Below, in pieces: positions 5,779 through 14,863 of a DNA stretch of 37,703 bases. The DNA lies in the IMG/VR virus record IMGVR_UViG_3300025652_000204, positions 1 through 37,703 of that record; one strand, given 5' to 3'. Source of the DNA: a virus. Below the pieces are notes generated by a model. It worked only from the letters and a program-made list of their open reading frames with translations. It was not told where the DNA came from and did no database searches. The stretch's first letter is position 1; every line of letters starts with the position of its first letter. A program made the position numbers and the translations under genes.

Positions 5779-6179
5779 AAGAACATGAAGGATATAGGAA
5801 TAAAGTTTACAAAGATACTTTGGGAAAACGTACCATTGGATATGGTCATTTGTGTAGAGATGATGAAAAATGGGAAGACGATAAACAATACGATCATCGA
5901 CACTTGGAAAAAACTTTTGAATATGATTTTTCTATTGCCTATCGTGGTGCTATGTCTTTGCACGATAATTTTGCAGAGTTGCCTAAACCTATTCAAGAAG
6001 TTTTTATAGAAGCGTGCTTTGTTATTGGCACAACAGGCTTTAGCAAATTTAAAAAGACATTAGAATTAATTAACAACAAACAATATACCGAAGCATCCGA
6101 AGAAATTAAAAATTCAAAGTGGTATCGTCAAGTGCCGCAAAGAGTAGAAATGCTTAGTAAGAAATTACAAGATGTTTAA
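5748..6179 (+). CDS. T4-type lysozyme (endolysin)
   Basis: A 143-aa muramidase of the T4 lysozyme family (glycoside hydrolase 24). The catalytic triad is visible: E14 in the EHEG motif, D23 in YKDT and T29 in RTIGYGH, with the same spacing as T4 E11, D20 and T26. It cleaves the MurNAc-GlcNAc bond of peptidoglycan at the end of infection. There is no signal or SAR segment, so release should need a holin, and a 3TM holin lies 88 bases downstream. The start overlaps the upstream gene; a weak AGGA lies upstream. Confidence 0.92.
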   Translation: MEFETLREEIKEHEGYRNKVYKDTLGKRTIGYGHLCRDDEKWEDDKQYDHRHLEKTFEYDFSIAYRGAMSLHDNFAELPKPIQEVFIEACFVIGTTGFSKFKKTLELINNKQYTEASEEIKNSKWYRQVPQRVEMLSKKLQDV

Positions 6180-6273
6180 AACAATATTCATCTTGTTGTT
6201 TGCAACGTTAGTCACAATACAATTAGCGAATTTATTTATTTATTACGAACAAGTAGGTGGAAACATATGTTAA
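6172..6273 (+). CDS. 33-aa single-pass membrane peptide in lysis cassette
   Basis: A short ORF overlapping the lysozyme end by 8 bases and the holin start by 7. The product is one long hydrophobic helix (FKTIFILLFATLVTIQLANLF) followed by IYYEQVGGNIC. Tight overlap with both lysis genes supports translation. It could be a pinholin-type or antiholin-type peptide or a reduced spanin component; the C-terminal Cys is not a lipobox. Unknown function. Confidence 0.5.
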   Translation: MFKTIFILLFATLVTIQLANLFIYYEQVGGNIC

Positions 6274-6650
6274 ATTTATTAATAAAACCATTGTTAGGAG
6301 TAGCAGGCGAAGTTGTTAAGGGTGTTGTAGATACACGCAAAGCAAAAGCTGAACAAAAAGTTACAGAAATAAAAGCTAAAACTTCTTTAATGGAAAAACA
6401 GATTAAAGGAGAAGTTGATTGGGATTTAGAGGCAATTAAAAATACGCAAGATTCATGGAAAGATGAATGGTTAGTTTTGCTTTTTAGCATCCCATTAATT
6501 TTGTCATTCTGTGGAGACTGGGGCAGAGATATTGTTTACAATGGTTTTCAAGCATTAAGTCAAGCACCAGATTGGTACAAATATACTTTAGGTGTAATTG
6601 TATCAGCATCATTTGGTATCAAAGGTGCAACTAAATTTTTCAAAAAATAG
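6267..6650 (+). CDS. Holin, GTA/3TM type
   Basis: A 127-aa protein. The N-terminus (LLIKPLLGVAGEVVKGVVD) is amphipathic, followed by a charged helix (residues 22 to 68) and then the hallmark segment W..EWLVLLFSIPLILSFCGDW (about 69 to 90) plus a second hydrophobic stretch YTLGVIVSASFGIKGATKF at the end. This fits the GTA_holin_3TM family, in which the charged helix precedes the membrane segments. It would open the inner membrane for the lysozyme. It lies directly between the lysozyme and another small membrane peptide. Confidence 0.8.
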   Translation: MLNLLIKPLLGVAGEVVKGVVDTRKAKAEQKVTEIKAKTSLMEKQIKGEVDWDLEAIKNTQDSWKDEWLVLLFSIPLILSFCGDWGRDIVYNGFQALSQAPDWYKYTLGVIVSASFGIKGATKFFKK

Positions 6651-6658
6651 GAGGTAAT

Positions 6659-6778
6659 ATGAAATTATTACAAGACTTATGGAGTCACTTAAAAGAGTGG
6701 TCTGATTGGTCAATGAAAGATTGGATTAAAGCAGGAATTGTTGCGATAATCGTAATCGTAGTGATTGGTGCTATTTAA
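6659..6778 (+). CDS. 39-aa membrane peptide
   Basis: An ORF with a strong ribosome site (AGGAGG at 6650 to 6655). The product has a Trp-rich amphipathic N-terminus (LWSHLKEWSDWSMKDW) followed by a transmembrane helix (AGIVAIIVIVVIGAI). The good SD, the tight spacing after the holin and the clear membrane topology support it. It is probably part of the lysis module, perhaps a holin regulator; that role is inferred. Confidence 0.65.
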   Translation: MKLLQDLWSHLKEWSDWSMKDWIKAGIVAIIVIVVIGAI

Positions 6779-7954: not shown

Positions 7955-8031
7955 TGGCGAGAGTGAAGGGACTCGAACCCTCGACCTTCTGCGTGACAGG
8001 CAGACGTTCTAACCAACTGAACTACACCCCC
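7955..8031 (-). tRNA. tRNA-Asp (GUC), with encoded CCA
   Basis: Read on the minus strand, 77 bases fold as a complete cloverleaf: acceptor GGGGGTG with CACTCTC (two G-U pairs), D stem GTTC/GAAC, anticodon stem TCTGC/GCAGA with loop CTGTCAC (anticodon GUC), T stem GAGGG/CCCTT with loop TTCGAGT, then discriminator G and CCA. All invariant positions look intact. The gene lies 224 bases downstream of the integrase stop. It may be an expressed phage tRNA, an attachment site that restores a host tRNA gene, or both. Confidence 0.93.
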
Positions 8032-8255: not shown

Positions 8256-9368
8256 TTAAGGTAGCAAATTTATTTTCTTCGCTGTCTCTTCTGGTATTGT
8301 ACTTCCATAGACACTAATCATATCTCTCGTTTTCCAACCCCCCAAATCCATTAATTCACTATCATTCGTATCAGCATAACTAATTAAGTTAGTTGTCCAA
8401 GTATGCCTTCCTTCTCTTCTTTTCTTTTTATGGCTTATACCTGCATCATCTAACATTTTATTCCAACGATTAGATAATCCCCAATCTGATTTTTTTCTTT
8501 GATCTAAATTTTTCCAAGGAAACAACATATCTTCCCTATCATTAATTCTTACAAGCCATTCTCGTAGAGTAGGGTGTATTGATACTTCTCTTCCTTCTTG
8601 CTGTTTATTTTGCCATAAAAAAATAACATTATTTTCTAAATCTATTTGTGGTTTATTATTTTTATAATTTGTACCTTTCCAAGATACATTTAAGGCTTCT
8701 TGTAATCTAGCTCCTGTATAAAGAATAAAAACAAGCAATAATTTTATTTCATAATCAAGACAGGTTTTTAAACATCTTTTTACTTCTTCTAATGTAAAGT
8801 AATACTTAGGTCTATTAGCGTTAGATAAAGTAGGAAAGTGTTTTATACGAAGATAATTGCACCAATTATTATCTGACGCATAGTGCATTATCTTTGATAC
8901 AGCATTAATGAAATTACGATTAACTGTGGCGTGTTTAGATGATATTTCTATTTGTGTATCTCTATCTTGTTCGTTAAAACGTAAATCAGCATACTGTTTA
9001 ATATTTTGATAACACTCCATAGCTTTCTGACCAATAATTTTATTATTGATCTTGGATAAGGGAAACGAACCTAAATATACAACTGATCTTTGTAAGTTTC
9101 TTTTATCTTGTTTACTTGGTTTTTCATGGGGGTCAGATAATAATTCTTCATGTGCGTCTTTGTACTTTCGTATTTTATAACTACCATGTATTCTTTTATA
9201 ATCTTCCTTCCAATCCTCACAAAACTTTTCTTCGAATCTAGGTGTAATTTTTTTAGTATTTAATAAATCAGTTTTTGTCCAATTAACTTCAACTGTACTT
9301 CCTTCATATAGAAAAGAACCTCTTATATAGAGGTATCTACTGTTTTCTCTTGATTTAAGTCTAAGCAT
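8256..9368 (-). CDS. int: Tyrosine recombinase (phage integrase)
   Basis: A 370-aa integrase. Residues about 120 to 185 form the SAM-like core-binding domain, and residues about 190 to 365 the catalytic domain. Active-site residues: R221 (TGARLQEAL), K255 in the beta-hairpin, R321 (GRHTW), W345 (LGGW) and nucleophile Y354 (SVYGS). The first position of the usual H-x-x-R box is Arg (R318), a known variant. It should integrate and excise the phage, probably at tRNA-Asp. It is the last gene of the leftward operon and overlaps the HTH gene upstream by 46 bases. Confidence 0.93.
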   Translation of the reverse strand: MLRLKSRENSRYLYIRGSFLYEGSTVEVNWTKTDLLNTKKITPRFEEKFCEDWKEDYKRIHGSYKIRKYKDAHEELLSDPHEKPSKQDKRNLQRSVVYLGSFPLSKINNKIIGQKAMECYQNIKQYADLRFNEQDRDTQIEISSKHATVNRNFINAVSKIMHYASDNNWCNYLRIKHFPTLSNANRPKYYFTLEEVKRCLKTCLDYEIKLLLVFILYTGARLQEALNVSWKGTNYKNNKPQIDLENNVIFLWQNKQQEGREVSIHPTLREWLVRINDREDMLFPWKNLDQRKKSDWGLSNRWNKMLDDAGISHKKKRREGRHTWTTNLISYADTNDSELMDLGGWKTRDMISVYGSTIPEETAKKINLLP

Positions 9369-9544
9369 AGTTCCATAACCTTTCCCACATCTTCTTTAGT
9401 GAAGATTTGTGTACTCATTCTGAAACGATGCAATGCCTTTTCTTGAGGATTTTCTTTTCTCAATTTGGCTAATAACCTTCTACAACTTCTTTCACTAAAT
9501 TTCAAATCTTTTGCTAATTCTTTTACTGTAATTACTTCTACCAT
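9323..9544 (-). CDS. Excisionase-like winged-helix DNA-binding protein
   Basis: A 73-aa protein. VKELAKDLKFSERSCRRLLAKLR (residues 7 to 29) is a clear helix-turn-helix of the MerR or excisionase type, followed by a wing-like QIFTKEDVGKVM. Size, position directly upstream of int and the 46-base overlap fit a recombination directionality factor. It could alternatively be a regulator of int. It starts one base inside the previous gene's stop. Confidence 0.7.
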   Translation of the reverse strand: MVEVITVKELAKDLKFSERSCRRLLAKLRKENPQEKALHRFRMSTQIFTKEDVGKVMELCLDLNQEKTVDTSI

Positions 9545-10047
9545 TAGTATTTCCCCATTATTATATCTTGATTTTCTTCTTCATTTTTTGCATCTTCACT
9601 AATCTTTCTCCTAAATTCGTCTAGTTCTTTACGTTCTTCTTCCGTAGTAATACGTTTAGGATGAAATAAAGCGGAGTTCTCTGGTAATCTTTTCTTTGCT
9701 AGTTTCTCTTCTATTTCTTTATATTTCTCTTCATCTTTGCGTTGGTGTCCTAAATACAGCATATTACATAATTCATTCGTAGCTAATAAAACATCTTGAT
9801 AGTCTATAAAAACAACACACCATTGAATAATTTTACGATCATCGTGCAAAACACTAACTCTTTTATTAAAGTGATGTACTGTGTTATTATAGGCTTTTGA
9901 AAGGTACTCTTCCATTTTAGGTTTACCCAATATTCTAATACTTCCGTCTCCAAATTCTAATTCCCACAACGGTTTTTCAAATAAACCAGACTTAGGATTA
10001 TTACCGCCTTCTTCTAATTGTGTTAACTTGCTTATTTCTTTACTCAC
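9544..10047 (-). CDS. Hypothetical early protein
   Basis: A 167-aa protein in the leftward early operon, overlapping the upstream gene by 8 bases. The N-terminal half is mixed (LWELEFGDGSIRILG, then IIQWCVVFIDYQDVLLA); the C-terminal half is charged and helical with KLAKKRLPENSALFHPKR and an EEERKELDEFRRKI coil. No family is recognised and there are no membrane segments. Its place between recombination genes and excisionase suggests a DNA-metabolism or host-takeover role, which is unproven. Confidence 0.55.
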   Translation of the reverse strand: MSKEISKLTQLEEGGNNPKSGLFEKPLWELEFGDGSIRILGKPKMEEYLSKAYNNTVHHFNKRVSVLHDDRKIIQWCVVFIDYQDVLLATNELCNMLYLGHQRKDEEKYKEIEEKLAKKRLPENSALFHPKRITTEEERKELDEFRRKISEDAKNEEENQDIIMGKY

Positions 10048-10288
10048 TTATGATCTCCATTTCGCTAATAGGTATTACCCTTAACGCTGTATTATTCTTA
10101 GCGATCATACTTTGACACTTCATGGCATTTTCTTTTGATATTTTATAAGTGTGGGGATAGCGTTTATTTCCGTACTTATCTTTATCTAGTATTTCTACTA
10201 ATACCCCTTTGTCCGTAAAATTTTTTTCAGCAATTCCAACACTACCACCATTTTTCCACATAGCAGATTTTATAATTACTTTGTTCAT
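10040..10288 (-). CDS. Small hypothetical early protein
   Basis: An 82-aa protein, MNKVIIKSAMWKNGGSVGIAEKNF onward, mostly beta-strand-like with a basic patch KDKYGNKRYPHTYKI. It overlaps its neighbours by 4 bases upstream (ATGA) and 8 downstream, as part of the leftward operon. The type of small basic beta protein would suit nucleic-acid binding, but no family is recognised. Confidence 0.55.
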   Translation of the reverse strand: MNKVIIKSAMWKNGGSVGIAEKNFTDKGVLVEILDKDKYGNKRYPHTYKISKENAMKCQSMIAKNNTALRVIPISEMEIISE

Positions 10289-10653
10289 GTTTGATACCTA
10301 CTCATTTTCATTTCATGTCGCTTATTTACTTCGTCTGTTTGTTCTAAATCATCTAGCTTTTGTTTAGTGATGTAACGAACCTGTGAAATTAAAAACTTCT
10401 TATGTATGTCTTGTTTGGTTGTTGTATGTTCAATAAATTCTTTTTGATTTGCTATTAGTTCTTTTGCTGTAGTTGTATTATGTCCATTGTTTTTTAGCTC
10501 TTCAAAAATTTTACTTTTTAACGTAGCTTCTGTGTCTTTTAATGAATCAAAAGCTGTCTTGTTTTCAGCCCAATCTTCTCCAAGCTTTAATGTTTCATTC
10601 ATCATAGCAACAGGGTCAAACCTATTTCTTCTTTTAAAATATTCATCACTCAT
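10285..10653 (-). CDS. Hypothetical helical early protein
   Basis: A 122-aa, highly charged, almost wholly alpha-helical protein with little hydrophobic core: FKRRNRFDPVAMMNETLKLGEDW, then long Lys/Glu-rich helices ending in KRHEMKMSRYQT. It has 4-base overlaps at both ends, so translation is coupled to the HNH gene upstream. No family is recognised. Confidence 0.55.
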   Translation of the reverse strand: MSDEYFKRRNRFDPVAMMNETLKLGEDWAENKTAFDSLKDTEATLKSKIFEELKNNGHNTTTAKELIANQKEFIEHTTTKQDIHKKFLISQVRYITKQKLDDLEQTDEVNKRHEMKMSRYQT

Positions 10654-10928
10654 AAATATTCACTCTCCAATTTATCTGCTATATTTCTAAGATTGATAAC
10701 TCTGGCTTTAATGTTGTATTCTTTATTAGAATGACATTTATCGTGACAGCTTCGGCAGAGACAAATGAGATTTTCAATGTAATCTTTGCACTTACTCCCA
10801 CCTAAAGATTTTGCAGATAGGTGGTGTACGTCAGCACCCCAATCGCCACACATTGCACATTGTTCAGTTTGTGCTAGTGTTAATTCATCCCACCAAAATT
10901 GTCTGTATACGTCTATATGTTTTTTCAT
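10650..10928 (-). CDS. HNH endonuclease
   Basis: A 92-aa protein. The HNH motif is complete: C24-x-x-C27 (CAMC), the DVHHL pair at 34 to 38, N53 (ENLICLC) and C-x-x-C plus H (CRSCHDKCH) at 57 to 65. The two Cys pairs would bind structural zinc and the His/Asn/His residues the catalytic metal. In this operon it more likely serves recombination or packaging than homing. It follows a hairpin leader after a 244-base gap, so it may have its own expression control. Confidence 0.85.
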   Translation of the reverse strand: MKKHIDVYRQFWWDELTLAQTEQCAMCGDWGADVHHLSAKSLGGSKCKDYIENLICLCRSCHDKCHSNKEYNIKARVINLRNIADKLESEYL

Positions 10929-11172
10929 TTTAATTTAGTGGGAGGGAATCCTATAAAAAACCCTCCCTATTACTCACACTTTAAAAAAGATAAAAAATTA
11001 ATTTGTTTTATTGTTATAATCCAAAAAAACTTATCATCCTTTCCTTTGTTCCTTTTTGAATAACTGTCAGATAAGCGAACAATCTCTCTCCAACTAGCTT
11101 TTCTGCAACAACGCAGAAAACTGAATAACAATTATTGCAGTTAATTTTGCAACCTCATGCCGCAAAAACTTT
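10929..11172 (-). other. Non-coding gap in leftward operon with two hairpins
   Basis: No convincing ORF on either strand. Two perfect inverted repeats are present: TTTTCTGC-N6-GCAGAAAA at 11099 to 11120, and GGGAGGG-N14-CCCTCCC at 10940 to 10967. The second ends 11 bases before the HNH start codon. Neither is followed by a proper U-run on the minus strand, so I do not call them terminators. They may be leader structures, processing sites or a small RNA. Confidence 0.5.
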
Positions 11173-11433
11173 TTAAAATGGTATGTCTTCAAGTTTCTCT
11201 TCTTTAGTTACTGATTGTGTATCTGACTTAGGTTTCCAAGTGTTTACTTCCGTGTACCACTTGCCTTCCTTACTTTCTTTAACATCAAGATTAATCCAAT
11301 CTTCATCTTTGTTTTGTAATTTTTCTTTATACCATTGTGTAAATTCATCTTTCTTTATTGATATTTTAAATTTAACAAAATCAACGTTAGATTCTTTTAC
11401 AAATAATCCTTTAGCAAAATCTTTTTCTTCCAT
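11173..11433 (-). CDS. Small protein with SSB-like C-terminal tip
   Basis: An 86-aa protein with a beta-rich body (FVKFKISIKKDEFTQWYKEKL, then GKWYTEVNTWKPK) and an unstructured acidic tail ending E-D-I-P-F. That ending closely matches the D-D-I-P-F tip by which SSB proteins recruit replication and repair enzymes. Together with its position directly after erf and the nuclease, this suggests a phage single-strand-binding or host-recruiting protein. The body is too short and divergent for me to confirm an OB fold. Confidence 0.6.
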   Translation of the reverse strand: MEEKDFAKGLFVKESNVDFVKFKISIKKDEFTQWYKEKLQNKDEDWINLDVKESKEGKWYTEVNTWKPKSDTQSVTKEEKLEDIPF

Positions 11434-11442
11434 ATTATCTCC

Positions 11443-11916
11443 TTAACTTGCTAAGTTTCCGTCATCATCATCACTAGCTAATCCGTATAATGATTGTAAT
11501 CCATATCTCTTCGCATAGCTCACCGAACTCCCCATCCTTTGAGGATTTTCTTTATCATCGCCTTTAACTAAAACAGGTACACGACAAGAAAATTCTTTTT
11601 TATCAATATTGTGACGCATGGTTGTTGTTACATAAATATCTTTTGTAACGTCTTCCCATTTTTTTACTATTTGATTTCCTTCTTTATCAAACTGTGTTGC
11701 TTCTTTTTTTACTATCATATTTTGATAATCAACTGATTGCGTAAATGATAAACCAAACTTAGTTCCATAATTAACAGCATTAATGACACTTGTAAGATCA
11801 GAATATTTACTTTTAAAATGTGGGTTAACTGATTCTTTAATTGCCTTAACATTCATTTCTTGAAACTTTGTAAGAGCCTCTTTTATTGTTTGTATTTCTT
11901 CTGGTTTATCTTTCAT
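11443..11916 (-). CDS. erf: ERF-family single-strand annealing protein
   Basis: A 157-aa recombinase of the ERF family. It has the diagnostic N-terminal NPHFKSKYSDLTSVINAV (residues 31 to 48) and the QRMGSSVSYAKRYGLQSLYGLASDDDDG motif (about 126 to 153). ERF proteins anneal complementary single strands, helping phage genome circularisation and recombination. It overlaps the upstream nuclease ORF by 4 bases, matching the usual exonuclease-annealase pairing. It is somewhat shorter than P22 Erf (204 aa), lacking the extended C-terminal domain. Confidence 0.88.
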   Translation of the reverse strand: MKDKPEEIQTIKEALTKFQEMNVKAIKESVNPHFKSKYSDLTSVINAVNYGTKFGLSFTQSVDYQNMIVKKEATQFDKEGNQIVKKWEDVTKDIYVTTTMRHNIDKKEFSCRVPVLVKGDDKENPQRMGSSVSYAKRYGLQSLYGLASDDDDGNLAS

Positions 11917-12278
11917 TTCTTTTTTCTCATCCTTTTCTTTAATTCCTTATCTTTTTCAAAAGCAGTTAAATAAATCTTAAATTGTTTAAATGCTTCTTTT
12001 AGATCAGTTTTGTTAAACTCTTTAATCTCATATTCAGAGTTATCTTTTGGAAAACGAGCTACTAAAAATTGATCTATTTCTATCTTGTCATTTTCTTTAA
12101 CAAGCTGTGCGTAAGCTGAACCTTGTAAAAGATTATCAACATACACATTAGAAGATGACTTAAAATCAATCAGAATATGTTTTCCATTTTTTTTGACGAG
12201 CAAATCTGGTGTACCTCCGTATTTATACTTACGAGAGGTGTAATGTTTTTCTGTCCAAATAATTTCGGTGTTAGACAT
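11913..12278 (-). CDS. PD-(D/E)XK exonuclease, C-terminal part (split gene)
   Basis: 121 aa carrying the catalytic half of a RecB/Cas4-type PD-(D/E)XK nuclease: TEKHYTSRKYKYGGTPDLLV supplies the first acidic residue (D after G-T-P) and ILIDFKSSS the D-x-K pair. Helices follow, with a basic tail ending KKRMRKKK. The N-terminal half sits in the preceding ORF, shifted by one base; the two overlap by 8 bases (ATGTCTAA). Either two peptides associate, or this is a frameshifted single gene. It would make the single strands used by ERF. Confidence 0.75.
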   Translation of the reverse strand: MSNTEIIWTEKHYTSRKYKYGGTPDLLVKKNGKHILIDFKSSSNVYVDNLLQGSAYAQLVKENDKIEIDQFLVARFPKDNSEYEIKEFNKTDLKEAFKQFKIYLTAFEKDKELKKRMRKKK

Positions 12279-12555
12279 TAAATTCTTTCCACCATTTCAT
12301 AAAACCATTGAAACAACTTTGTACTTCGGGGTCATCCGATAATGTAAATTCTTTTTTATTAATGATACACTCTGCGTGATCGTGAAATGTAGTTCCTATG
12401 TCTTGAACTCGTTTCATTTCTTCCCAGTATTTAATACCACTTAATCCAAGTTTGTTTGACCATCCAGTTATTGCCCCACTATCTTTAAAACGAGATATAA
12501 TAGTTGTTACACTAGGTATTTTTTTATCATCAAGTTTATAAGGTTTAGTTGGCAT
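12271..12555 (-). CDS. PD-(D/E)XK exonuclease, N-terminal part (split gene)
   Basis: 94 aa with the N-terminal signature of phage RecB-like nucleases: IPSVTTIISRFKD near residues 13 to 25, and GTTFHDHAECII near 54 to 65, in which the His and Glu usually belong to the nuclease core. It ends at KWWKEFNV, exactly where intact homologues would continue into EIIWTEKH, now encoded in the next ORF in another frame. The 11-base overlap with the small ORF upstream indicates coupled translation. Confidence 0.7.
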   Translation of the reverse strand: MPTKPYKLDDKKIPSVTTIISRFKDSGAITGWSNKLGLSGIKYWEEMKRVQDIGTTFHDHAECIINKKEFTLSDDPEVQSCFNGFMKWWKEFNV

Positions 12556-12697
12556 TATCTGTTTCTATCAACTCTTCATTTTCTGCTTGTTCTAATTCCC
12601 ATTCTTTCTTAGGTTCTCTTTGTTCTACTAATGGGCTTGGTAATGGGTAAACTTCCCAACCATATCTTTCTGTTAATATTTTTCCTATCTTGTCCAT
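12545..12697 (-). CDS. 50-aa first ORF of the leftward early operon
   Basis: An ORF from ATG 12697 (MDKIGKILTERYGWEVYPLP) to the stop at 12545, overlapping the nuclease ORF. A weak AAGG lies about 7 bases upstream of the start. The product is acidic at the C-terminus (EQAENEELIETDNAN) and has no known motif. It is the first gene after the PL promoter and a long leader hairpin. The overlap pattern makes it likely real. Confidence 0.5.
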   Translation of the reverse strand: MDKIGKILTERYGWEVYPLPSPLVEQREPKKEWELEQAENEELIETDNAN

Positions 12698-12715
12698 GTC
12701 TGCCTTTCTGGAACA

Positions 12716-12755
12716 AGAGGGTAGGAAAAACTATTACGGAGGAAACCTACCCTCT
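12716..12755 (-). promoter_or_regulatory. Leader hairpin of the leftward operon
   Basis: A perfect 10-bp inverted repeat, AGAGGGTAGG with CCTACCCTCT, encloses a 20-base loop. On the transcribed minus strand the loop contains TTTCCTCC, an anti-Shine-Dalgarno-like sequence. The hairpin ends 18 bases before the first gene of the operon. There is no U-run after it, so it is not a plain terminator; a translational or antitermination control element is possible. Confidence 0.5.
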
Positions 12756-12836
12756 CTGTGCCATGTATCATCGACTACAAGAAGTAACCTTATGTCAAAT
12801 CTTGCAATTATTGACCATTTCTAGCCAATAGAGGAC

Positions 12837-12864
12837 AAAATATAGATTGAAATTAGTTTGTCAA
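12837..12864 (-). promoter_or_regulatory. PL: leftward early promoter
   Basis: On the minus strand the -35 box TTGACA (12864 to 12859) and the -10-like TATTTT (12842 to 12837) are separated by 16 bases. The -35 box is one half of the OL palindrome, so a bound repressor would block it. Transcription would begin near 12830 and read the nuclease-erf-int operon. The same -35 and -10 hexamers and spacing occur in PR. Confidence 0.65.
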
Positions 12865-12877
12865 GTTATTTTGACAA
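12858..12877. promoter_or_regulatory. OL: repressor operator, 20-bp palindrome
   Basis: TTGTCAA-GTTATT-TTGACAA, a perfect 7-bp inverted repeat with a 6-base spacer, just downstream of the repressor gene. The same palindrome architecture with identical half-sites appears at 13717 on the other side of that gene. Looser half-site-like elements (TGTCAA, TTGACC) lie at about 12793 to 12815. Confidence 0.75.
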
Positions 12878-12884
12878 TGTAAAG

Positions 12885-13649
12885 TTATATAGCGATTTGT
12901 TCGATTTTATAATCTTCGTCAAATAGGGTGTGTGTAGTTATTCGTGGATAAATAGCATTAAATTGACAATCTTTGATTAATTCAAACTCATTAACCCACA
13001 TATCTTTATAAGAAACCATTCTGCCGTTTTCTTTAAATTTTAAATCGTCTCTATTTATGTGTTTACTTTTCCACCATTGAAACACGCAAGAGCCATCTTT
13101 ATTAAATTTTAATACTTGACCAAAATAAAACATATTATTTTCTTTTCTTTGAAGAAATACATCTACATTAATTAATCTTTCTTTTAATTTACTATCATTA
13201 ACCCAATTTTTGTGATCAAAGTCTATAAGTGAAAATGCAGGAATGTGATTACCTTCGTGTATATCCCAATAAAATGCTTTTTGTGTTGGTTTTAAATACG
13301 CATTATTTAAAAAATAAATAACTTCTATTGGTTCATCATAATTTCTAGGCACAAAATGACATTTATTATAATCAAACTTTTCAATAATTTCTGCTTTAAC
13401 AATATTATCACTAATAATTTGATTTATTTTAACTTCTAAAACTCTTGCTAATTCTTGAAGCTGTGAAAACTTTACATCAGAACCTTTTAAAATTGATGCA
13501 ATAGTTTGATGAGACATTGAACCATAGCCAATAGGTTCATTATCAGTAAGCCTAGATAATGTTCTGCCAGATACGTCATGTCCTTTTTCTTTAACTAAAT
13601 TATTTAATCTAATTAAATATTTTTTGTGGTCTAACAATTTCATTTGCAT
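12885..13649 (-). CDS. CI-like phage repressor (HTH)
   Basis: A 254-aa protein. Residues about 40 to 90 form an XRE-type helix-turn-helix region (SMSHQTIASILKGSDVKFSQLQELARVLEV). The remaining 160 residues (FVPRNYDEPIEVIYFLNNAY onward, with GQVLKF and CVFQWWKSKH) show no clear S24 autoprotease signature: no Ala-Gly cleavage site and no Ser/Lys dyad that I can identify. A GAGG lies 8 bases before ATG 13649. Being between two matching operators and reading away from the right one identifies it as the lysogeny repressor. How it is inactivated is not evident. Confidence 0.78.
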   Translation of the reverse strand: MQMKLLDHKKYLIRLNNLVKEKGHDVSGRTLSRLTDNEPIGYGSMSHQTIASILKGSDVKFSQLQELARVLEVKINQIISDNIVKAEIIEKFDYNKCHFVPRNYDEPIEVIYFLNNAYLKPTQKAFYWDIHEGNHIPAFSLIDFDHKNWVNDSKLKERLINVDVFLQRKENNMFYFGQVLKFNKDGSCVFQWWKSKHINRDDLKFKENGRMVSYKDMWVNEFELIKDCQFNAIYPRITTHTLFDEDYKIEQIAI

Positions 13650-13694
13650 AGTTTTACCTCGTAAGTTTTTTTAGTCAAATTTATTGTGTGCTTA

Positions 13695-13723
13695 AAAATA
13701 TTGATATAATTTTACATTGTCAA
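13695..13723 (-). promoter_or_regulatory. PRM-like promoter of the repressor gene
   Basis: Minus strand -35 TTGACA (13723 to 13718) and -10 TATTTT (13700 to 13695) with a 17-base spacer. The -35 box is the left half of OR, opposite to the half used by PR, so the two promoters diverge from one palindrome. The transcript would start about 40 bases before the repressor ATG. Confidence 0.6.
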
Positions 13724-13736
13724 TAAGTTTTGACAA
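13717..13736. promoter_or_regulatory. OR: repressor operator, 20-bp palindrome
   Basis: TTGTCAA-TAAGTT-TTGACAA, with half-sites and 6-base spacing identical to OL at 12858. Each half contains a TTGACA -35 box, one for PR and one for the repressor promoter. Further half-sites (TTGTCAA near 13786, TTGACAG near 13815) lie inside the next gene, and another TTGTCAA lies near 16134. Confidence 0.75.
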
Positions 13737-13757
13737 ATGTATAAAAATATTTATTTT
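13730..13757 (+). promoter_or_regulatory. PR: rightward early promoter
   Basis: -35 TTGACA (13730 to 13735), 16-base spacer, -10 TATTTT (13752 to 13757). The predicted first transcribed base falls at or within a base or two of the ATG at 13765, so the first mRNA may be leaderless. The -35 box is the right half of OR. Confidence 0.65.
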
Positions 13758-13764
13758 ATATGAA

Positions 13765-14034
13765 ATGGAAGTCTTTTGTAATATTTGTCAAAAAACCAAG
13801 GAAATACGCAATAATTTGACAGTTAAGGAAACTAAGGTTTTAGAATTTATAATTAATTTTACTAAAATCGAGAGAAAATCGCCATCTATGAGAGAAATTG
13901 CCGATGGTTTAGGTTTAAAATCGCTATCAGGGGTCGATAGATATATCTACCGATTAAAAGATAAAGAATATATCGCTAAAACCCCTTACATTAAGAGATC
14001 AATAGTAGTCTTAAAGGATATTATTTGTGAGTAA
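13765..14034 (+). CDS. LexA-type winged-helix regulator (Cro position)
   Basis: 89 aa if begun at ATG 13765 (MEVFCNICQKT). A TTG at 13717 would give a longer frame but lies inside the operator and is rejected. Residues about 19 to 80 match the LexA DNA-binding domain: LTVKETKVLEFIINFTKIERKSPSMREIADGLGLKSLSGVDRYI followed by the wing. There is no LexA protease domain. An N-terminal CxxC (CNIC) is unusual. Position directly after PR suggests a Cro-like antagonist of the repressor. The stop overlaps the next gene's GTG start. Confidence 0.72.
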   Translation: MEVFCNICQKTKEIRNNLTVKETKVLEFIINFTKIERKSPSMREIADGLGLKSLSGVDRYIYRLKDKEYIAKTPYIKRSIVVLKDIICE

Positions 14035-14863
14035 AATCTTCAAAATGGGTGTCCATGTTGACAAATTTATAGCCGATACTGTGCATTTATCAGATGATGA
14101 AATAGGCAAATACTTTCGTTTTCTTTGTTATGCTTGGAAGTTACAAGCTAAACTACCAAGTGACCTTAAAAGAATAAATCAAATAGCAAAGAACCCAAAC
14201 ATTAAAAAAACACAGTATTTACTTGATACTTACTTTGATAAAACAGAGGAAGGATATACCAATACAGCTCAATGTGAAGAATGGAAATATGTTGAAAACG
14301 TATCTGAAAAAAATTCTAAAAACGCAAATTTGAGGTGGGATAAAGAAAAAGCTATGCCATCGCATATGCCTAATAATGCCAGTTATAGTAAGAGTAATAG
14401 TATTATATATAATAATATAATAGATAGTTGGAATAAGCATATTCCAACATCCCATATTAAAGTTTTTAATGAACCAAGAAAAAGATTGTTTAAATCTAGG
14501 TTTAAATCTTTTTTCAATGAGAGCTACGAGGAATGGGAACAGTTTTTACAACGCATTTCCAAAATACCTTTTTTATGGGGAAACAACGATAGAGGATGGA
14601 AAGCTGATTTTAATTGGGTGTTAAATGAAATTAACTATGCAAAGATTATAGAAGGTAACTACGAAAAAGATGAAAAAAAGCTAGAACCCGTAAAAGAAGT
14701 AAACAATGAAGAGATTGCTGAAAAATGGATAAAAGTTTGCAACAATCCAAGTGCATTTATGCTTTCCCAAGCAGAAAAAAACTTTCAAGAAATACGAGAC
14801 TTGTATCAACGAAAACTATTAACTGACGAACAAATTAAGGTGTTAGGTGTTAATGTCCGATAA
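14027..14863 (+). CDS. Phage replication protein (DUF1376-like)
   Basis: A 278-aa protein. The N-terminal VHVDKFIADTVHLSDDEIGKYFRFLCYAWK is the DUF1376/YdaU-like winged-helix signature of phage replication initiators. Residues about 130 to 200 include NNIIDSWNK and FLWGNNDRGWKADFNWVLN, the second signature of such organiser proteins. It probably recruits the host replicative helicase to the phage origin. AAAGGA lies 7 bases before GTG 14027, supporting that start over ATG 14045. No helicase loader or primase follows it. Confidence 0.75.
   Translation: MSKIFKMGVHVDKFIADTVHLSDDEIGKYFRFLCYAWKLQAKLPSDLKRINQIAKNPNIKKTQYLLDTYFDKTEEGYTNTAQCEEWKYVENVSEKNSKNANLRWDKEKAMPSHMPNNASYSKSNSIIYNNIIDSWNKHIPTSHIKVFNEPRKRLFKSRFKSFFNESYEEWEQFLQRISKIPFLWGNNDRGWKADFNWVLNEINYAKIIEGNYEKDEKKLEPVKEVNNEEIAEKWIKVCNNPSAFMLSQAEKNFQEIRDLYQRKLLTDEQIKVLGVNVR

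Follow-up and report, generated by a model that had tools for sequence, protein, structure and literature searches.

A predicted phage immunity region with matching operators on both sides of an exchangeable repressor gene

A repressor gene lying between two matching operators very probably forms the immunity region of the phage analysed here, a 37,703-base IMG/VR virus contig with 32.8% GC (the whole of which is referred to below as the window). Judging from sequence, the repressor would act on both operators to block the early promoters PL and PR and would repress its own synthesis, and it has travelled between phages as an exchangeable block. The sites, their conservation, their linkage to the repressor gene, a third half-site, the boundaries of the block and a lineage with an inverted block are all evident from the sequence comparisons presented below. 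An initial annotation of the window had described two palindromic operators that contain the -35 boxes of the flanking promoters; this picture was right in outline, was too simple with regard to the operator, and missed both the exchange of the block and its inversion.

Gene layout, operator palindromes and the repressor

The record carries terminase and portal genes (the portal being ~41% identical to that of Pelagibacter phage HTVC106P), together with an integrase, a xis-like gene, ERF and a tRNA-Asp gene that adjoins the integrase (Table 1). The immunity region proposed in the initial annotation is borne out, as a lambda-like one, by this layout, in which matching operators surround the repressor gene, the int, xis, ERF and nuclease genes lie leftward, and a winged-helix gene and an O-like gene lie rightward. 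The assignment as the lysis-lysogeny region of a temperate marine phage is thereby supported on gene content. No DNA-level match to any named phage was obtained for the 10-18 kb region of the window, no named phage was found with a match to the repressor protein, and no prophage copy of the repressor was detected in GTDB species genomes.

Two further features of the leftward side were observed. The PD-(D/E)XK nuclease is encoded by two overlapping frames (12271-12555 and 11913-12278), which could represent a programmed frameshift, a split gene or a lineage frameshift; the contig L018 carries a single frame of 214 aa. The tRNA gene is a complete tRNA-Asp(gtc) gene (7955-8031, minus strand), which may mark the attachment site and could aid host identification.

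Table 1. Positions of genes, operators and predicted promoters in the window
Feature	Position	Strand	Description and basis
Leftward early operon	8256-12697	-	ORF list, profile matches
Integrase	8256-9368	-	Leftward operon
xis-like gene	9323-9544	-	Label from sequence pattern and position
HNH-like gene	10650-10928	-	Label from sequence pattern and position
ERF	11443-11916	-	Leftward operon
PD-(D/E)XK nuclease	11913-12555	-	Leftward operon
PL (predicted)	12837-12864	-	TTGACA 12864-12859, N16, TATTTT 12842-12837; predicted start ~12830
Stop-side (left) operator palindrome	12858-12877		TTGTCAA-GTTATT-TTGACAA; outer half is the PL -35; exact match
Third half-site of left operator	12878-12883	+	TGTAAA; adjoins TTGACAA on its inner side and separates the operator from the repressor stop codon
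Repressor gene	12885-13649	-	254 aa; ORF list; weak Cro/C1-type HTH (residues 45-80) and, in low-confidence models, beta-rich C-terminal domain
Repressor promoter (predicted)	13695-13723	-	TTGACA 13723-13718, N17, TATTTT 13700-13695; predicted start ~13688
Third half-site of right operator	13711-13716	-	TGTAAA (TTTACA on the plus strand)
Start-side (right) operator palindrome	13717-13736		TTGTCAA-TAAGTT-TTGACAA; outer half is the PR -35, inner half the repressor promoter -35; exact match
PR (predicted)	13730-13757	+	TTGACA 13730-13735, N16, TATTTT 13752-13757; predicted start 13765
First rightward gene	13765-14034	+	89 aa; LexA-type winged helix (PF01726, E=2.6e-09)
Replication-initiation protein (O/DnaD-like)	14027-14863	+	PHROGs

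The palindrome TTGTCAA-N6-TTGACAA occurs exactly twice in the 37.7-kb record, at 12858 and 13717, once on each side of the repressor gene, just as the initial annotation had placed it; 300 dinucleotide shuffles of the record yielded no exact copy (mean 0, maximum 0). The genome-wide search that the annotation had proposed recovered these two flanking sites and no other at zero or one mismatch. When three mismatches were allowed, eight copies were found against 6.7 expected, which is no enrichment, and therefore only the exact sites are counted. Lone TTGACAA half-sites are likewise at chance level (13 found, 12.6 expected). A genome-wide set of 'stoperators' was considered and ruled out, given the lack of extra exact or one-mismatch sites and the chance-level frequency of lone half-sites. 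Used alone as a search key, the 20-bp palindrome was also discarded: it matches at least 120 viral contig stretches, the majority with only one copy and probably as chance matches, and is therefore unspecific without the repressor gene.

Within the repressor family, the Pfam domains HTH_3 and HTH_26 match six of 12 members (best E 0.0025-0.0038). The HTH score of the window's repressor, in bits, is below the curated Pfam cut-off, and the relative L164 gives an HTH_3 E-value of 0.15. The HTH segment reads MSHQTI in every complete member, L164 at 52% identity included. No Pfam S24 peptidase domain was matched in the family at E<=1. AlphaFold models of the repressor, built from shallow alignments, are poor (mean pLDDT 55 and 60), and the Sm/Tudor-like beta fold that they hinted at was set aside, with E-values no better than 0.01 and low TM-scores. 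The best BFVD match to the models, an HTH cro/C1 protein of a Pseudomonas phage (E 0.003, TM 0.27-0.33), is suggestive only, and a PDB sequence search with the repressor returned chance-level matches only.

Two variants of the gene were noted. Compared with L006 and L008, the contigs L018/L019 and L020 carry a shortened and replaced C-terminal segment, ~600-680 nt into the gene, the rest of which is nearly unchanged. Both operators are intact in L021, but its repressor frame (6001-6768) is interrupted after ~68 codons, possibly reflecting a clear (non-lysogenic) mutant or an assembly error.

Conservation of the operators and their likely reader

Scans of IMG/VR identified 24 other contigs with the repressor gene (52-100% amino acid identity), repeat scans converging on one set; some of these are near-duplicates, and about ten repressor lineages are independent. 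Every readable flank among the 24 loci carries a recognisable copy of the palindrome, so that a repressor gene kept without its palindromes, the observation that the initial annotation had named as counting against its proposal, was not encountered. The stop-side palindrome is found in each of the 23 relatives whose contigs extend that far (19 exact, two with one mismatch and two with two), at a constant distance just past the stop codon. The start-side palindrome is present in all 21 readable cases: seven copies are exact, one has a single mismatch, 11 have two, and two are degenerate, namely those of L018/L019, in which the outer half is intact and the inner half degenerate. The distance from gene to site hardly varies. 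Within the palindrome the arms are kept and the N6 spacer varies in sequence; as a comparison for the arms, the window and L164 agree at 43% of the 4-fold codon positions of the repressor gene.

Alignment of 14 distinct sites revealed that the conserved element is larger than the palindrome. From outside to inside it reads TTGTCAA-N6-TTGACA-W-TGTAAA, with arm columns mostly at ~1-2 bits and spacer columns at 0.2-0.5 bits. Almost all copies, at both sites, have TGTAAA on their inner side, where it is nearly as conserved as the palindrome arms. This third half-site is separated from the second by one or two bases (TGTCAA-N6-TTGACA-N1/2-TGTAAA), and on the stop side it is conserved where no promoter needs that sequence; at five type-C loci the third half-site of the left operator reads AGTAAA. 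The 20-bp palindrome that the initial annotation took for the whole operator is thus retained as part of it, but the operator extends to the conserved inner TGTAAA and is probably a three-half-site element. A further TTGACAA half-site just outside the start-side operator of types B and C was not counted, because it is absent from that place in L164.

The inner pair of half-sites, TTGACA-N1-TGTAAA, could instead be the true dimer site, with the N6 palindrome partly a by-product. The pattern TT[GT]ACA-N-TGT[AC]AA occurs in the record at 12871 and 13711 only, against 0.07 expected, and the inner half of type B is TTTACA, so that the second dyad, TTTACA-T-TGTAAA, is perfect there despite the decay of the first palindrome. 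We nevertheless consider this unlikely: two bases separate the second and third halves on the start side of type C, L018 has TTGCAA-T-TGTAAA, and across all sites TTGTCAA, the outer half, varies least. Furthermore, TCAA-N6-TTGA fits the 14-bp spacing usual for C1-type dimers.

Whether the 254-aa protein is what reads the extended operator can be judged against the other DNA-binding protein of the region. The first gene from PR encodes a LexA-type winged helix, a confident DNA-binding domain and a candidate Cro-like protein. A LexA-type winged helix occupies the same position in L018 and, as alignment indicates, also in types B and C, and so follows PR in all lineages examined. It is quite improbable, however, that this protein is the main reader of the palindromes and that the 254-aa protein has another role, since types A, B, C and L018 differ in sequence around its recognition helix yet have the same operator arms, and the HTH segment of the repressor is invariant. 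The closest flank-relative of L018, contig L180 (nuclease 87% identical), has an unrelated HTH_3 repressor, and no copy of the palindrome was found within its readable stretch. The sites are kept with the gene and absent from the readable part of L180; the palindrome therefore follows the repressor gene. With the repressor as the main reader, the winged-helix protein may bind the sites in addition. Its N-terminus carries a CxxC motif in types A and C (e.g., MEVFCNICQK) and CPNC in type B, an extension that is absent in L018 and is possibly metal-binding.

Predicted promoters and control of the switch

At the string level, each of the -35 and -10 boxes that the initial annotation had assigned to PL, PR and the repressor promoter is present at its position (Table 1). 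With only four of its six bases matching TATAAT, TATTTT makes a weak -10 box when taken alone. The arrangement TTGACA-N16-TATTTT, directed outward, recurs in flanks that are divergent in sequence (both sides in type A, the start side in type B and the stop side in L018), and such recurrence at exactly N16 makes chance less likely, though the flanks may share ancestry. In type C no good -10 was found, the TATTTT boxes not being conserved there. The evidence for the -10 boxes is moderate; every outward arm, for its part, is a consensus -35.

No -10-like hexamer lies beyond the inner half of the stop-side palindrome. It follows that two divergent -35 boxes are present at the 13717 site only, and the initial statement that one palindrome carries such a pair holds for this site but not for that at 12858, where only the PL -35 is usable. 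In relatives the inner half of the start-side site reads TTTACA, TTGACT or TTGCAA, two good TTGACA boxes being a type-A feature. Most relatives show drift in this half, so the sharing of -35 boxes is not a general rule. Their repressor promoters are weaker or shifted (TTTACA-N15-TATAAA; TTGACA or TTGACT-N15-AATAAT), so the exact overlap of -35 box and operator is type-specific.

In the window, TATTTT of PR is followed by seven bases and then by the ATG (13765) of the winged-helix gene; the predicted start falls on this ATG, and the mRNA is therefore predicted to be leaderless. A distance of 7-8 nt is also found in L164, L014, L011 and L015 (7 nt in type A and L164). The predicted +1 lies on or adjoins the winged-helix ATG in types A, C and L164, type B having a leader and then a GTG start, and no ribosome-binding site is present at the starts predicted to be leaderless. 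The repressor mRNA has a predicted leader of 39 nt, with GAGG ahead of the ATG at 13649.

The transcript past the stop-side operator (window 12690-12830, minus strand) is predicted to form strong hairpins. Stop-side hairpins of differing sequence were found in every lineage tested (z ~ -3 to -4.5), L164, L008, L011 and L018 included, and in the inverted L018 the hairpin is likewise on the stop side, just ahead of the winged-helix ATG. A terminator or an antitermination element is possible.

Under the proposed mechanism, a dimer of the 254-aa repressor would bind TTGTCAA-N6-TTGACAA at one operator on each side of its own gene. Because the outward arms are the -35 boxes of PL and PR, binding would block the recombination/integration and replication operons together. 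At the start-side operator, the repressor promoter shares its -35 with the inward arm, so that the same occupancy would lower repressor synthesis (negative autoregulation) and would leave no separate site for lambda-style activation of this promoter. From sequence we infer that the repressor binds the sites, that the promoters are active, that the repressor limits its own synthesis and that immunity is shared. That the palindromes are mainly promoter elements, with the dyad a by-product of back-to-back promoters, would agree with the consensus -35 in each outward arm but is very improbable, given that the inner stop-side arm, without a promoter downstream in the usual orientation, is no less conserved than the other parts of the site, that the TGTAAA beside it is equally conserved, and that the spacer length is fixed at 6 bp.

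Exchange of the repressor block and comparison with known systems

The repressors of types B, C and L018 are 78-86% identical to that of the window (72% in L020), against mostly 28-57% for their neighbours (nuclease ~39-57%, winged helix ~40% or undetected), and the large terminases of type B and L018 are 47-56% identical. The pattern is reversed in L164, with a repressor at 52% and most neighbours at 76-94%. The large terminase of L015, of type C, is 83% identical, which indicates mosaicism in the structural genes as well. Contigs L012 and L021 have a different repressor allele between flanks of type A. In L010 the right flank is of type B and the left flank of type A, with the switch lying in the later part of the repressor gene or in the stop-side operator. 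The identity profile falls from ~90% to ~40% at the repressor ATG and just past the stop-side operator, and the repressor thus moves as a block bounded by its start codon and the stop-side operator.

In the contigs L018 and L019, which are nearly identical (6689 of 6691 bases) and count as one lineage, the repressor reads toward the winged-helix/replication operon and not toward the nuclease/int operon. By sequence, then, the block is found in both orientations. A literature search on inverted immunity regions found nothing relevant. The unrelated repressor of L180 has the L018 orientation too, so that L018 looks like a replacement and not a flip; it is best read as a case in which the resident repressor was replaced by the block, in the orientation usual for the L018 group.

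The inverted lineage, the inverted repeats around the repressor gene, and block boundaries at or near the sites would also be expected if recombination acted on the sites to invert or move the gene as a cassette (programmed inversion), with control by the repressor secondary. This seems highly unlikely, however, as every contig of types A, B and C in which both flanks are present has the gene in a single orientation, L180 points to replacement, and the start-side boundary is the ATG and not the operator. Both operators are near-identical and mutually inverted, so the operator-repressor-operator unit, as an immunity block under repressor control, behaves as self-contained. We tentatively suggest, as one possible extension, that it is a portable and orientation-independent immunity module, and that phages swap repressors between shared operators and stay mutually immune. 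If so, the symmetric sites would let the block work in either direction, despite differing early genes and terminases.

Such a switch would be compact, with one site setting the use of both early promoters and the repressor promoter in uncultured marine temperate phages. The exchange of repressors between conserved operators, an inverted copy included, suggests an immunity common to phage groups, and the natural variants can serve as test constructs for how far the lysis-lysogeny switch depends on gene orientation.

In lambda, cI lies between OL and OR, PL leads into recombination and int genes, PR leads into a cro-like gene and a replication gene, each side has three operators, and the divergent starts are ~80-82 bp apart. 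The region described here is alike in its operators flanking the repressor, its operon contents and its start spacing. The initial view that it is simpler than lambda stands for the number of palindromes only: one palindrome per side, plus an extra half-site, takes the place of the multiple operators per promoter of lambda, but the predicted starts of the repressor promoter and PR are 77 bp apart, close to the ~82 bp of lambda. It differs further in that the repressor's own -35 lies inside the operator, leaving no free activation site, and in that the repressor is without a Pfam S24 peptidase match. The C repressor of the temperate Rhizobium phage 16-3 acts on palindromic OL and OR of the 4-N6-4 kind, with half-sites ACAA...TTGT. 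Both phages are thus temperate with operators of 4-N6-4 type, although, compared by description, the half-sites of 16-3 differ from the TCAA-N6-TTGA and its extensions found here. PMC10460002 cites the immunity work on phage 16-3.

Precedents exist for a single operator, for operators placed on -35 boxes and for leaderless mRNAs of a switch. In mycobacteriophage BPs, a palindromic operator lies in the divergent repressor/PR region and the full operator exceeds the visible palindrome (PMC4557955), as it does here. It differs in that its operator is between the PR -10 and -35, immunity is integration-dependent, and the genome has several operator regions. For ArdK of R388, TTGACA is both a -35 box and a repressor half-site, and inverted repeats with a 6-bp spacer exist in the ArdK/KorA family (KorA of pWW0) (PMC9723621); in contrast to the phage repressor these are plasmid regulators, the natural sites of ArdK are direct repeats, and no homology is claimed. 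The immB region of the telomere phage PY54 has one 16-bp palindromic operator between cI and cro, shown for Cro and adjoining cI, and its cI and cro mRNAs are leaderless (PMC4488713). The present region shares the single palindromic operator, here with an added half-site, between the repressor and the gene in the cro position, and its PR mRNA may be leaderless as well; unlike PY54, it has sites at both ends of the repressor gene, and the place of Cro is taken by a winged-helix protein.
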